The notes beneath the pieces are model-generated. The model was given only the letters and a program-made list of their open reading frames with translations. It did not search any database and was not told the origin of the DNA. The translations under genes and the position numbers were made by a program. 35,146 nt of DNA, from the NCBI GenBank assembly GCA_003218885.1, contig QHOV01000146.1:1-35146 (forward strand), written 5' to 3'. The DNA is from Verrucomicrobiota bacterium (GTDB taxonomy: Bacteria; Verrucomicrobiota; Verrucomicrobiia; Chthoniobacterales; UBA10450). Shown here one piece after another: positions 3,080-33,184 of the stretch. Every line of letters starts with the position of its first letter. The stretch's first letter is position 1.

Positions 3080-3106
3080 AGACGTTAATCTATCACGAAT
3101 CGCAAG

Positions 3107-3161
3107 CTGTGGCCGCCTTGCTGTGCAAGGCGCTGCGCTTCCCACAGGGAAGCGGCTACAA
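3107..3161. repeat. Two-hairpin palindromic element, CTGTAG family copy R1
   Basis: CTGTGGC-CGCCTTG-CTGTG-CAAGGCG-CTG-CGCTTCCC-ACA-GGGAAGCG-GCTACA. Reverse complement aligns to R5 (GTAGYCGCTTCCCTGTGGGAAGC). Confidence 0.85.
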
Positions 3162-9111: not shown

Positions 9112-10077
9112 ATGAAAAAAATCGGAATTCTTTTTGGCCAAGAACACAGTTTCCCGCCGGCGTTTGTCGAGCGGGTGAACCAAAAAACCGGCGGCAAGGA
9201 AATCGCCGCGGAGTTTGTCAGGATCGACAAAGTGATCCAAGGCGAGCCGTGCGGATATGACGTGGTGATCGATCGGATCTCGCAGGACGTCCCATTCTAT
9301 CGCGCTTGGCTCAAGAATGCTGCGCTCACCGGTACCGCAGTGGTGAACAATCCCTTTTGGTGGAGCGCAGACGACAAATTTTTCAATAACGCGCTGGCCA
9401 CCAAGATTGGCGTGGCAGTTCCGCGCACAGTTTTGCTGCCATCAAACCAGCTCCCACCGGACACCAACGACAAATCATTTCGCAATCTCGGCTACCCGCT
9501 CGATTGGGAAGCGATTTTCAGTTACGTCGGCTGGCCTGCGTTTTTCAAACCGTTCAGCGGTGGCGGCTGGAAGAACGTGTATCGATTGCACAATCGCGAG
9601 GAATTTTTCCGCGCTTACAACGACACCGGACAGCTTGTGATGATGCTGCAGGAGGAAATAAAGTTCGACATGTATTTTCGCTGCTACTCAATCGATCAGC
9701 GCCATGTGCGGATCATGCCCTACGAGCCGCGGCATCCGTTTCATCAGCGTTACCAAACCGAATGGCATGCTCCGAAGGAGATTCTGCAAAGAGTCGAGGA
9801 GGGCGTGCTCCGATTAAATCAATTTCTCGGCTACGATCTGAACACCGTGGAATTTGCCATTCGCGACGGTGTGCCGGTCGCGATCGACTTTTGCAATCCC
9901 GCGCCCGATTGCGAAGCGGCGTGGATCGGTCAGGCCAATTTTGAATGGGTCGTCGAAGCAATTTCGGAAATGGCAATTCGCAAAGCGCGCGAGCACGTCC
10001 CCGGCCGCGACAACTTAAGCTGGGGCAAATTGCTTCAAGCCGCAGTGACAAAGCGCCCGCTCAGCGACCTCGCGTAA
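9112..10077 (+). CDS. ATP-grasp domain protein (RimK-like)
   Basis: MKKIGILFGQEHSFPPAFVERVN start; PAFFKPFSGGGWKNVYRL, MLQEEIKFDMYFRCYSID, TVEFAIRDGVPVAIDFCNPAPDCE (ATP-grasp-like C-terminal ligand motif). N-terminal ORF extension (9046-9111) is repeat-derived. Confidence 0.8.
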   Translation: MKKIGILFGQEHSFPPAFVERVNQKTGGKEIAAEFVRIDKVIQGEPCGYDVVIDRISQDVPFYRAWLKNAALTGTAVVNNPFWWSADDKFFNNALATKIGVAVPRTVLLPSNQLPPDTNDKSFRNLGYPLDWEAIFSYVGWPAFFKPFSGGGWKNVYRLHNREEFFRAYNDTGQLVMMLQEEIKFDMYFRCYSIDQRHVRIMPYEPRHPFHQRYQTEWHAPKEILQRVEEGVLRLNQFLGYDLNTVEFAIRDGVPVAIDFCNPAPDCEAAWIGQANFEWVVEAISEMAIRKAREHVPGRDNLSWGKLLQAAVTKRPLSDLA

Positions 10078-10083
10078 TATCTT

Positions 10084-10171
10084 CCACAGATTGCGCAGAT
10101 TTTCGCAGATTGAAGGCAGAAGCAGTTTCGGGCTTCCCAAAATAATCTGTGTAAATCTGCGAAATCTGCGG
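10084..10171. repeat. Inverted CAGATT-rich repeat between the ATP-grasp and ligase genes
   Basis: CCACAGATTGCGCAGATTTTCGCAGATT ... AATCTGTGTAAATCTGCGAAATCTGCGG. Confidence 0.75.
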
Positions 10172-10191
10172 ATGTTTTTCTTCCGCTGTTC

Positions 10192-14286: not shown

Positions 14287-15384
14287 ATGAAATTTAGCGT
14301 TACAAAAGAAAAACTGCTCGAAGGTCTGCAACAAGTTCAAAACGTGGTCAGCACCCGCACCACTCTTCCGATCCTTTCCAACGTTTTGCTGCAGGCGGAC
14401 AAGGATGAAATTCATCTCACAACGACCGATCTCGATGTCGGCGTGCGCGGCAGTTGCGAAGCGCACGTGGACAAAGCAGGAGCGACTACTCTCCCCGCGC
14501 GCCGTCTTTTCAATATCGTTCGCGAACTCCCTTCGAGCGAAATTCAGGTCGATGTCGATGGAAAGAATGCGGCTTCCATCCGGAGCGGTCAAAGCTTCTT
14601 CAAAATTCTTGGGTTGCCGGAGGATGAATTTCCCCCGCTGCCGAAATTCGAGGACGCGAAGGTGGTCACCATTCGGCAGAAAGATTTGCGCGATGGTCTG
14701 CGCAAGACTTCCTATGCCATATCTACCGACGAGACCCGTTACGTGCTCAACGGGGTTCTGTTCAGTTTCAAAGACAACAAACTTACGCTGGTCGCAACGG
14801 ATGGGCGCCGGCTAGCTATGATGGAAATCGAACTGGAATTTCCTCGTAGCCACGAAGCGGACCTGATTATTCCGACCAAAGCCGTGACTGAATTGCAACG
14901 CCTGCTGACGGATGACGGCGAAGTCAAGGTGAGCATGGGTGGCGGTCAGATCGCATTCGATCTCAACAAGACGCTGCTCGTGTCAAAGTTGATCGAGGGC
15001 AATTATCCAAATTATCGCCAGGTGATCCCGGGCGAAGCAAAGGAACGAATAAAACTCGAACGCGAAATGTTTCTCAATTCACTGCGGCGCGTTTCGCTGC
15101 TGGCCAGCGACAAATCGCACTCGATCAAACTCAATTTCAGCAAGAACAACATCGATATCACTGCAAACACGCCGGAGGTGGGCGAAGCGAAGGAATCAAT
15201 CGCGGTCGCTTATAAGGGTCGCGAGTTTTCCATCGCTTTTAATCCAGAGTTCCTCATGGCGCCTTTGCGCGCACTGACCGAGGACGAAGTATTTCTCGAT
15301 CTCATCGACGAGATGAGCCCGGGAGTTTTGAAGATTCAGACGCCGTTTCTCTATGTGCTGATGCCGATGCGCATCAGCTCCTGA
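14287..15384 (+). CDS. dnaN: DNA polymerase III subunit beta (sliding clamp)
   Basis: MKFSVTKEKLLEGLQQVQNVVSTRTTLPILSNVLL start, LVATDGRRLAMMEIE, C-terminal YVLMPMRI; downstream of dnaA. Confidence 0.97.
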   Translation: MKFSVTKEKLLEGLQQVQNVVSTRTTLPILSNVLLQADKDEIHLTTTDLDVGVRGSCEAHVDKAGATTLPARRLFNIVRELPSSEIQVDVDGKNAASIRSGQSFFKILGLPEDEFPPLPKFEDAKVVTIRQKDLRDGLRKTSYAISTDETRYVLNGVLFSFKDNKLTLVATDGRRLAMMEIELEFPRSHEADLIIPTKAVTELQRLLTDDGEVKVSMGGGQIAFDLNKTLLVSKLIEGNYPNYRQVIPGEAKERIKLEREMFLNSLRRVSLLASDKSHSIKLNFSKNNIDITANTPEVGEAKESIAVAYKGREFSIAFNPEFLMAPLRALTEDEVFLDLIDEMSPGVLKIQTPFLYVLMPMRISS

Positions 15385-15400: not shown

Positions 15401-15484
15401 TTGTAAGCCACCGGCCTGTGGCCGGTCAACCCAGGCGTTGCTTTTCACATTAAGGAAGACGGCCCACGGGGCCGTGGCTACAGC
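15401..15484. repeat. Two-hairpin element, CTGTAG family copy R2
   Basis: TTGTAAGCCA-CCGGCCTGTGGCCGG ... ACGGCCCACGGGGCCGT-GGCTACAG, between convergent dnaN and the S2P gene. Confidence 0.8.
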
Positions 15485-15503: not shown

Positions 15504-16586
15504 TTACAAAACCCGCCGCCGCGGCATCGCCGATTGAATCATCATCAGTTCGGTCACGTTCTCTGGAGTGAGCAAGCCGACCAAGCGCTTCATCCGATCA
15601 AGCACTGGCACCGCCGGACAATTGCATTCCTGCATAATGCGAAATGCGTCTTCAAAGCGTGTGCCCGTTGTCACCGTGGGAATATCGCGCCGCATCACGT
15701 GGCCCACGCGCAGGTCGGGATCGTTCTTGCGCAAGGCGGCGATGAGATCGTGACGCGTCAACAAACCGGCGACGCCGCCCGTTTCATCCACGACTGGAAA
15801 ATCGTGCTGCGAAGTCGCAAGCAACGCGTCCACTGCTTCCTGCAGACTGGCGTTTTCAGAGAGCGTGCGGAATTCGCGCACCATTGCGCTCGAAACAGGA
15901 AACCGGCGGGCGACATCTTTCATCTGCGCCAGGGCCGCTTCTTGCGACGCGCCGATATAAACAAAAAGCGCGATGAAAATCAGGAACGGATTCCAGAGCA
16001 GTCCGAGGAAGCCAAAGACGAACGCAAAACCCTGGCCGACCGTCGCGGCGACTTGCGTAGCGCGCGCATAACTCATCCGCGTGGCGAGTAGCGCTCGCAA
16101 CACCCGCCCGCCATCCATCGGAAATGCTGGCAGCAAATTAAAAAGAACCAGCATGATGTTGATGGTCAGCAACTGCGCGATGAGACCGCCGCCTTCGACT
16201 GTTGCGGGGTTAAGCAGGGCTTGCGATCCGCCAGCCACAAACAAACCAAGCGCGATCACCACATTCACCAGCGGCCCGGCCACCGCGATAATTAATTCCT
16301 GCACCGGCTCCTCCGGCATGCGTTCGAGTCGCGCCACTCCGCCAATAGGCAGCAACGTGATATCGGGTGTATTAATGCCGAAAGCCTTCGCCGCGAACGC
16401 GTGCCCGAATTCGTGCAGCACCACGCAAAGAAAAAGCAGCAGAACAAATATGACTCGGCTCGCCGCCACGGCGGAACCGCCTTGCGCATAATAGCCGAAG
16501 GCCAGCCAAGCAATCAGCAGCAAGAAGGTGATGTGAATCCGCAATTGAATACCGGCGATGCGGAAGATTGGGAGAGACCAGCTCAT
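15504..16586 (-). CDS. Site-2 protease family zinc metalloprotease with C-terminal CBS domain pair
   Basis: HEFGH zinc motif, NLLPAFPMDGGRVLRALLA, two CBS-like repeats (FPVVDETGGVAGLLTRHDLI; CPAVPVLDRMKRLVGLLTPENV). Confidence 0.94.
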   Translation of the reverse strand: MSWSLPIFRIAGIQLRIHITFLLLIAWLAFGYYAQGGSAVAASRVIFVLLLFLCVVLHEFGHAFAAKAFGINTPDITLLPIGGVARLERMPEEPVQELIIAVAGPLVNVVIALGLFVAGGSQALLNPATVEGGGLIAQLLTINIMLVLFNLLPAFPMDGGRVLRALLATRMSYARATQVAATVGQGFAFVFGFLGLLWNPFLIFIALFVYIGASQEAALAQMKDVARRFPVSSAMVREFRTLSENASLQEAVDALLATSQHDFPVVDETGGVAGLLTRHDLIAALRKNDPDLRVGHVMRRDIPTVTTGTRFEDAFRIMQECNCPAVPVLDRMKRLVGLLTPENVTELMMIQSAMPRRRVL

Positions 16587-16742: not shown

Positions 16743-17894
16743 ATGGAAATTTTTGATGTTGCAATCGTTGGCGGCGGCCCGGCCGGATCGAGCTGCGCGG
16801 CATTTTGCGCGCTGGCAGGTCTGCGGACGCTTGTGCTTGAGAGAGAAAAATTCCCGCGAGAAAAAGTCTGCGGCGATTGCTTGAATCCATCATGCTGGCC
16901 GGTGCTGCAGCGCCTCGGTCTCGCTCAGCGAGTCCGAGATTTGCCGCATTCCAAACTCGCGTCGGTCGAATTCATCGCAATCGATGGCCGGAAAGTGGTT
17001 GTCGATCTTCCGACCGGCGAATGGTGCGAATTGTCGGTGAAGCGCAGCCTATTCGACGATCTTCTGCTAAGGCGCGCACGCGAACTTCGCGCGCACGTTC
17101 GCGAGGGCACCACGGTTACGGCATTGAACTGTAGCCACGGGCCTGTGGCCCGTCCGGGTCGCGACGCCCCACAGCGGCGTGGCTACAGGGGCGATTGGAG
17201 AATTGAAACTGCGACCGGCGAAAGGTTCTCTGCGCGGACGCTGGTCGGCGCAGACGGGCGAAATTCTACCGTTGCGCGATTGTGCAATTTACTGCCACGC
17301 CCCGCGCGTGAACGCGTGGCACTCCAAGCGCACATCCCGCTGCCGCGAAATTTTGGCAGACGCGTCGTCCTGCAATTTCTTCCGGAAGGTTACTCCGGTC
17401 AGGCTCCGGTGAATGAAACCGAGCTGAATCTCTGTCTCGTAGGCACACCACCCACGATTTCGAGATTGCGCCGATGGGCCGAACGCTATTTTGAAATCAC
17501 TTCCGATCAGCCTTGGCGCACGATCACGCCACTCACGCGTTCGCCTGTTAGTTGCGCACACGAAAATCTTTTTTTCCTCGGCGATGCCGCCCGCGTCGTC
17601 GAGCCTTTTACCGGTGAAGGAATTTATTACGCCATACGCTCAGGCGAATTGGCAGCTATTGCCATTTCGAGAACAATTCGCGGCGAAGATCAACAAGCAA
17701 CGCTCCGCGAATTCGCTCGCGCCTGTGCCGAAATGTATCGCGGGAGACTGTGGGTCAACCGGCTTGCGCGTGCCGCAGTTCTATCGCCAAGGATCGCGTC
17801 GTTACTTCTCCGGTTTGGGCCGTTAAATCCGGCGATCATGCGATTAATGACGAAGAAGATTGCAGGTAGGGCGATTGACCTCAATCGCCCGTAG
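16743..17894 (+). CDS. FAD-dependent oxidoreductase, geranylgeranyl reductase-like
   Basis: FDVAIVGGGPAGSSCAAFCALAGLRTLVLEREKFPREKVCGDCLNP, LVGADGRNSTVARL, FLGDAARVVEPFTGEGIYYAIRSGE. Contains a 60-bp palindromic element in frame. Confidence 0.92.
   Translation: MEIFDVAIVGGGPAGSSCAAFCALAGLRTLVLEREKFPREKVCGDCLNPSCWPVLQRLGLAQRVRDLPHSKLASVEFIAIDGRKVVVDLPTGEWCELSVKRSLFDDLLLRRARELRAHVREGTTVTALNCSHGPVARPGRDAPQRRGYRGDWRIETATGERFSARTLVGADGRNSTVARLCNLLPRPARERVALQAHIPLPRNFGRRVVLQFLPEGYSGQAPVNETELNLCLVGTPPTISRLRRWAERYFEITSDQPWRTITPLTRSPVSCAHENLFFLGDAARVVEPFTGEGIYYAIRSGELAAIAISRTIRGEDQQATLREFARACAEMYRGRLWVNRLARAAVLSPRIASLLLRFGPLNPAIMRLMTKKIAGRAIDLNRP
17129..17188. repeat. Two-hairpin element inside a CDS, CTGTAG family copy R3 (60 bp)
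   Basis: CTGTAGCCACGGGCCTGTGGCCCGTCCGGGTCGCGACGCCCCACAGCGGCGTGGCTACAG, palindromic with CTGTAGCCACG/CGTGGCTACAG ends. Confidence 0.92.
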
Positions 17895-17921
17895 GCGGTA
17901 CAGGTTAACCGCCCCTGCCAA
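17866..17921. repeat. Two-hairpin element, GGTAGGG family copy R8
   Basis: GGTAGGGCGATTGACCTCAATCGCCC-GTA-GGCGGTACAGGTTAACCGCC-CCTGCC; overlaps the oxidoreductase stop codon and the ancestral folD stop. Confidence 0.85.
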
Positions 17922-21754: not shown

Positions 21755-21759
21755 CTAAA

Positions 21760-21842
21760 CTGTAGTCGCTTCCCTGCGGCAAGCGAAGCGCCGGCGTGTT
21801 CGACACCCGCATGCCGCGCCGCACACAGGGCGACGGCTACAG
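21760..21842. repeat. Two-hairpin element, CTGTAG family copy R4
   Basis: CTGTAGTCGCTTCCCTGCGGCAAGCGAAGCGCCGGCG...CCGCGCCGCACACAGGGCGACGGCTACAG. Confidence 0.85.
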
Positions 21843-21843
21843 T

Positions 21844-21948
21844 TTACCTCCCCACCGGGGGGACCGGCGGTGGGTTAGGCGGCAAAGGTTCCGGAGGCGG
21901 CGTGGGTGTCGGCGGAGCCGGTTTGGGCGGTGACGGTTGATCTGGCAT
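21844..21948 (-). CDS. Proline-rich small ORF (34 aa)
   Basis: MPDQPSPPKPAPPTPTPPPEPLPPNPPPVPPVGR*; preceded on the minus strand by GAAGGGAGCATCGATG (SD-like). Confidence 0.4.
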   Translation of the reverse strand: MPDQPSPPKPAPPTPTPPPEPLPPNPPPVPPVGR

Positions 21949-25415: not shown

Positions 25416-25494
25416 CTGTAGTCGCTTCCCTGTGGGAAGCACAACGCTGACGCTTGCACGCACGCCCGGCGTCGCCCAGAGGCGACGGCTACAG
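25416..25494. repeat. Two-hairpin element, CTGTAG family copy R5
   Basis: CTGTAGTC-GCTTCCCTGTGGGAAGC ... CGTCGCCCAGAGGCGACG-GCTACAG. Confidence 0.9.
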
Positions 25495-25918: not shown

Positions 25919-26010
25919 TTTAAAAGTTACATCGTTATATGATTACATCGGGATAGGCGCTGAAACGATTTAACATTGTAACTTTTGTAACGCTTGTAAC
26001 GTTGTAAACC
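25919..26010. repeat. Inverted GTTACAACGTT-type repeat, second copy
   Basis: TTTAAAAGTTACATCGTTATATGATTACATCG ... CGATTTAACATTGTAACTTTTGTAACGCTTGTAACGTTGTAAA. Confidence 0.8.
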
Positions 26011-33122: not shown

Positions 33123-33179
33123 CTGTAGCCCCGAAAGCATTCGGGGAAGAAGGGCGGCAGTCATAGACAGCCGCTACAG
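33123..33179. repeat. Two-hairpin element, CTGTAG family copy R6
   Basis: CTGTAG-CCCCGAAAGCATTCGGGG ... GGCGGCAGTCATAGACAGCCG-CTACAG, directly abutting the prfA start codon. Confidence 0.8.
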
Positions 33180-33184
33180 TTCAG

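Follow-up and report, generated by a model that had tools for sequence, protein, structure and literature searches.

A probable GTAG-tagged REP dimer inserted in frame in a flavin reductase gene of a Verrucomicrobia genome, and comparable in-frame repeats at orthologous sites across its genus

The 60-nt palindrome CTGTAGCCACGGGCCTGTGGCCCGTCCGGGTCGCGACGCCCCACAGCGGCGTGGCTACAG, which lies inside a flavin reductase gene of a Verrucomicrobia genome, is very probably a GTAG-tagged REP dimer (REPIN) inserted in frame, as its sequence features suggest. The window analysed here is a stretch of 35,146 nt, contig 42 of a 2.3-Mb MAG (G000; 217 contigs, 82% complete) that is related to soil MAGs of Verrucomicrobia and to a Candidatus Udaeobacter MAG belonging to the same genus. 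The element comprises two arms of 26 nt each, 81% complementary and separated by 8 nt, and in each arm TGTAG precedes a short hairpin whose loop is TGT (Table 1); it contains two REP units in inverted orientation, with GTAG adjoining a GC-rich hairpin at both outer ends (TGTAG + CCACGGGCC-TGT-GGCCCGT and its counterpart). Folded as RNA, the 60-mer reaches -36.5 kcal/mol (z = -4.1), and none of 200 shuffled sequences folded equally well. The frame opening at the ATG at position 16743 is stop-free through the element and reads TVTALN-CSHGPVARPGRDAPQRRGYR-GDWRIETATGERF; among the three frames of the element, that containing CTG-TAG always stops, and the remaining two can be open. The original prediction of a 60-bp palindromic element exactly in frame is confirmed in its coordinates, arms, fold and stop-free frame, while its claim of 20 added codons holds in part, as the 60 nt are stop-free but the net gain over element-free orthologues amounts to 54 nt (18 codons), the target lacking about 6 nt. 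It missed the class concerned, the GTAG REP dimers or REPINs, a known superfamily tied to tyrosine transposases.

Table 1. Positions in the window of the flavin reductase gene, its insert and a related intergenic element
Feature	Position	Strand	Basis
FAD-dependent oxidoreductase gene, geranylgeranyl-reductase-like, host of the insert	16743..17894	+	Pfam, TIGR02032, orthologues
Probable in-frame REP dimer (REPIN), 60 nt, encoding CSHGPVARPGRDAPQRRGYR (codons 17130-17189)	17129..17188	+	Sequence, orthologue alignment
Left REP unit, C-TGTAG + hairpin CCACGGGCC-TGT-GGCCCGTC	17129..17154	+	Sequence
Right REP unit, inverted; minus strand reads C-TGTAG + hairpin CCACGCCGC-TGT-GGGGCGTC	17163..17188	-	Sequence
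Intergenic REP dimer, same family as the 60-mer, left GTAG written GTAAG, ~1.6 kb upstream	15402..15483	.	Between ORFs 14287-15384 and 15504-16586

The host gene contains 383 codons, and its product matches FAD_binding_3 in Pfam (E=3e-22) and TIGR02032 GG-red-SF (E=1e-41; 143 bits, below the cut-off of 158.8); the solved structures closest to it in fold include halogenases and a geranylgeranyl reductase. Orthologues are present in most congeners. In the alignment of 30 congeners, the element is found in frame in four (G000, G032, G010 and G030), while G017 holds a decayed copy and G011 a different short hairpin; the remaining orthologues have a short turn (e.g. ALAHSGNW), as do those of both outgroup genera. 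The alignment identifies the 20 residues as a lineage-specific and not ancestral insertion. The short loop anticipated at this site in related reductases is borne out by nearly all the other congeners, and the outgroup genera are empty at the site, distant homologues with the same residues having been named as counter-evidence. The gene tree built without the insert columns requires a minimum of five presence/absence changes, and purifying selection acts on the gene apart from the insert (dN/dS of 0.24 against G032 and 0.14 against G010). In the AlphaFold model of the host protein (pTM 0.79), the insert is predicted to occupy a disordered surface loop, having pLDDT values of 41-44 and no secondary structure between the strands 125-130 and 152-156. 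The flavoprotein gene of G006 (C58, L058) has a frameshift beside the insertion site and further stops, with no REP there; this gene was considered as a failed insertion and rejected, as the frameshift is near the site but without an insert.

The 60-mer has 70 matches in G000 at E<=10, whole or half, and is thus repeated elsewhere in its genome, as had been anticipated. Four of these copies are full-length, namely the 60-mer itself and three others with identities of 88, 79 and 76%, and the remainder are mostly two halves with a wider spacing. The element ends (CTGTAGCC) have six occurrences in the window, compared with an expectation of 0.21, and the proposed match of these ends to intergenic copies is seen in the upstream dimer of the same family (Table 1). 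When the 35 genomes of the genus were searched with the pattern TGTAGCC-N(28-58)-GGCTACA, using the reversed pattern as control, the matches listed contained 2 to 30 dimers per genome in all 35 (control, 0 to 2), at least 11 in G000 (control, 1), and fell into several stem families. The many dispersed copies are mostly intergenic; 24 of the 87 dimers at the fetched loci are inside long open frames, in a collection that was gathered by searches and region fetches, is non-exhaustive and is biased towards such copies. Twenty of these 24 share one class of length modulo 3 (26, 23 and 14 for the others), which was set aside as proof of frame selection, since orthologous copies are non-independent and the total is in any case fixed by the genes being intact.

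Several REP families coexist in G000. A different family, (GG)TAGGGGCGATT..AATCGCCC, is found at the 3' end of the flavoprotein gene (17861-17917) and in contig C128 (L077), and flanks both sides of the only Y1_Tnp gene of this genome. GTAG-tagged palindromes with other stems are located at 3100-3160, 21756-21846, 25440-25494 and 33123-33180 of the window, which also contains long inverted repeats of other types without the GTAG tag at 10076-10179 and 25922-25986.

The genus was searched with the peptides that the element encodes in its two open frames, and the loci were then read. Among the matches listed, open-frame copies are found at least in argS and in a GlcNAc kinase-MurQ fusion (named from alignment to 4oby and 4s12, respectively), so that the in-frame intragenic copies for which a search had been proposed do exist. 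The same matches include copies in a PAS histidine kinase (G032 and G034), a TPR membrane protein (G013) and an S9-type peptidase (G018), names which are a reading of the sequence, as well as in an ArnT-like membrane protein (G005 and G020), methionyl-tRNA synthetase (metG; G005) and a ligase-like protein (G024), which are named from profile matches. Element-free orthologues were compared for the flavoprotein, argS and murQ, and the copies in the other genes are recognized from their open frames. Open-frame hits at gene ends (the nuoM tail and the N-termini of heptosyltransferase-like and acyltransferase-like ORFs) were not counted as insertions, and a fused ORF in G034 (C74) was likewise left out. 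The ArnT-like protein of G020 (C362, L118) contains two different in-frame REP-like peptides, VVAGVGDSG.. and CSHGSVSRS..TGHRPVAT.

In argS, an insert between RSIFRKAG and (I)NLAKRL is present in 16 of the 30 congeners. By labels assigned by eye from the insert sequences, nine of these inserts belong to the family of the 60-mer, two are decayed (G015 and G029), three are a GTGGCAT-stem palindrome, and of the last two G023 carries a GTAGCCGCC-stem dimer and G012 another; among the loci examined, the GTGGCAT-stem palindrome did not turn up as a dispersed repeat. The murQ insert follows ILLTCNP in 26 of the 30 congeners (L223-L252), with four empty, and this loop is an insertion hotspot: labelled in the same way, five inserts are of the 60-mer's family, nine are GTAGCCGG-type dimers, six are GTAGTGGCAGGC-type (some decayed) and the rest are unclassified. 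Both the GTAGCCGG and the GTAGTGGCAGGC families are dispersed in the genus. The sites align loosely and with gaps to 4oby (E. coli-type ArgS) and 4s12 (bacterial MurQ), as expected of a loop, and no insert is present in the outgroup genera where the site was found. The host genes are under purifying selection in most comparisons (dN/dS of 0.07-0.24). In argS of G032 (L137/L194) and murQ of G026 (L229), the REP dimer itself encloses another palindrome, about 30 nt long (CCGCCTTCGCC..GGCTACGGCG..), which is likewise in frame.

The history of these copies was examined on gene trees from which the insert columns had been left out, the minimum number of changes being compared with that for shuffled labels. 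The argS tree requires no fewer than 10 presence/absence changes (13 if families are distinguished), and the fraction of shuffles as low is 0.36 for presence/absence and 0.18 for families, i.e. there is no phylogenetic signal, whereas the murQ tree requires 3 changes (15 counting families) and keeps some signal, the corresponding fractions being 0.02 and 0.009. We tentatively propose that the argS and murQ loops may be standing sites where members of several REPIN families repeatedly arrive, degenerate and are cleared or exchanged, always in frame and faster than speciation, which, if true, would imply site-directed insertion together with clean removal or replacement. It is also possible, though on balance doubtful, that each gene received one ancient insertion which was inherited and later lost or replaced in place, via recombination at the shared TGTAGCC/GGCTACA ends, or which spread by gene transfer, a reading that concerns the history of the copies and not the identity of the element. 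Within any one gene, the copies of the 60-mer's family all point the same way. This speaks against insertion having recurred fully at random, and common descent or gene transfer seems to account for it better than a large number of independent random events; similar stretches of target are missing, and murQ is occupied nearly genus-wide. Against a single ancient event stand the number of changes in the argS tree, the argS copy of G025, which has different borders on both sides, and the argS inserts of G000 and G007, which differ at about 13% of sites while dS at the synonymous sites outside is 0.78, so that these two may be separate arrivals, transferred or constrained. No target-site duplication is evident at the inserts, where the target seems to have lost 6-20 nt. 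As inspected by eye, the compensatory changes in the stems are the variants of the subfamilies at large, and thus cannot separate selection from separate arrival.

The insert peptide is most likely tolerated rather than useful, and we infer its neutrality because the same loops in other species are empty, decayed or filled by a different family with an unrelated peptide. That the insert has been put to use, either as a loop peptide or as an mRNA hairpin (a pause or stability element) helping the host gene, is improbable, although it would suit the occupancy of murQ in most congeners, the position of its presence/absence changes within the lowest 2% of shuffles and the hairpins that are still strong in many copies; the peptides of the different families have no shared sequence, argS occupancy is without phylogenetic signal, and close relatives have clean empty sites as well as decayed copies (argS of G015 and G029, the flavoprotein of G017).

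The byp elements of Magnusiomyces mitochondria provide a model for inserts that are bypassed or excised, and the 60-mer, a strong intragenic hairpin whose ends match, could be read in the same way, with ribosomes bypassing the hairpin or with RNA excision leaving it untranslated. Such a reading is very hard to sustain, as a skipped element need keep neither frame nor freedom from stops, whereas neither stops nor frameshifts occur in any occupied copy of argS, murQ or the flavoprotein gene (the argS and murQ orthologue searches were not made by the frame of the insert), with lengths that include 57, 60, 72, 75 and 90 nt, and the inserts with a nested second palindrome are also in frame. An assembly or binning artefact, conceivable in a MAG so fragmented, or a chance palindrome is scarcely credible, being refuted already by the orthologues, since the separately assembled MAGs G032, G010 and G030 carry the insert at the identical site, and by the fold z-score given above.

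REP-associated tyrosine transposases are related to IS200/IS605, and a pair of inverted REPs flanks each of their genes (PMC2817692). Y1_Tnp genes are present in 33 of the 35 congeners, and in two of them (G015, C215; G006, C111) HUH/tyrosine transposase genes are bounded on both sides, within about 70-200 nt, by REPs of the 60-mer's own family; the G015 transposase passes NF047646 REP_Tyr_transpos with 94.5 bits (cut-off, 80). A transposase flanked by the 60-mer's family was not found in G000, where the single Y1_Tnp gene adjoins the other repeat family described above, and because this genome is 82% complete the cognate enzyme may be missing from the assembly or lost. From the arrangement in G015 and G006, we infer that the family of the 60-mer is mobilized by a tyrosine transposase. 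The REP dimers would be non-autonomous and depend for copying to new sites on the REP-associated tyrosine transposase, whose substrate would be single-stranded DNA; most copies would persist between genes, and an intragenic copy would survive only if the frame is kept, no stop is introduced and a surface loop is hit. The 60-mer would have landed in the turn between two strands of the flavin reductase and would be translated as a disordered loop of 20 residues.

In-frame GTAG-REP dimers are already known, including in a Verrucomicrobium, and the 60-mer belongs to this known kind. Intragenic in-frame GTAG and CGTC REPs were catalogued in 2013 in BMC Genomics; over half of them are dimers or groups, encoding 20-30 amino acids, the richest GTAG case is Opitutus terrae, a Verrucomicrobium, the targets include tRNA synthetases, and different REPs were found at about the same site in two recB genes (PMC3733652). 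The elements described here share with those GTAG dimers the tag, the inverted arrangement, the tyrosine-transposase link, in-frame copies of 20-30 amino acids in unrelated genes and the phylum, a likeness of tag and architecture; they differ in coming from another genus, in the orthologous sites followed over 30 congeners, in the several families involved and in the very fast turnover at argS and murQ. With the REPIN/RAYT system (PMC2817692, PMC8049555) they share GTAG-ended REP pairs forming a larger hairpin and, in G015 and G006, a transposase bounded by inverted REPs; however, REPINs are described as mainly extragenic, whereas here a clear minority is in frame within genes. The palindromic elements of Rickettsia (Ogata 2000, 2002), in the account of a review (PMC10969869), are about 150 nt long and lie in frame in unrelated housekeeping genes, and RPE-4 and RPE-6 belong to the CGTC superfamily with no transposase link (PMC3733652). 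The predicted resemblance to these elements, in an unrelated bacterium and repeat family, was right for the mode of working, as the flavoprotein, argS and murQ are unrelated genes with in-frame inserts relative to element-free orthologues, and the host is one of the Verrucomicrobia; the 60-mer, being 60 nt long and GTAG-tagged, has neither the length or CGTC tag nor the Rickettsia host of the RPEs, and its closest kin are, by all appearances, the GTAG REPs. Our literature search found no paper joining Udaeobacter with palindromic repeats, and the comparison of orthologous sites in 30 species, in which one site is held by several families in succession, goes beyond the descriptions found.

Loop peptides such as AVATPLWGV..TGHRPVAT or CSHGPVAR.. 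should accordingly be annotated with caution in these genomes, as they are probably translated REPs and not domains. In-frame palindromes are a known curiosity which in the Ca. Udaeobacter genus is unusually frequent and quick to come and go, and thirty related species in which the same codon positions of essential enzymes are empty, occupied, decayed or swapped offer a comparison beyond that of single genomes. Whether selfish palindromes serve as raw material for proteins, or the in-frame copies are merely survivors, becomes a testable question, and the turnover at standing sites, if true, would be a continuing source of new loop peptides for essential enzymes.
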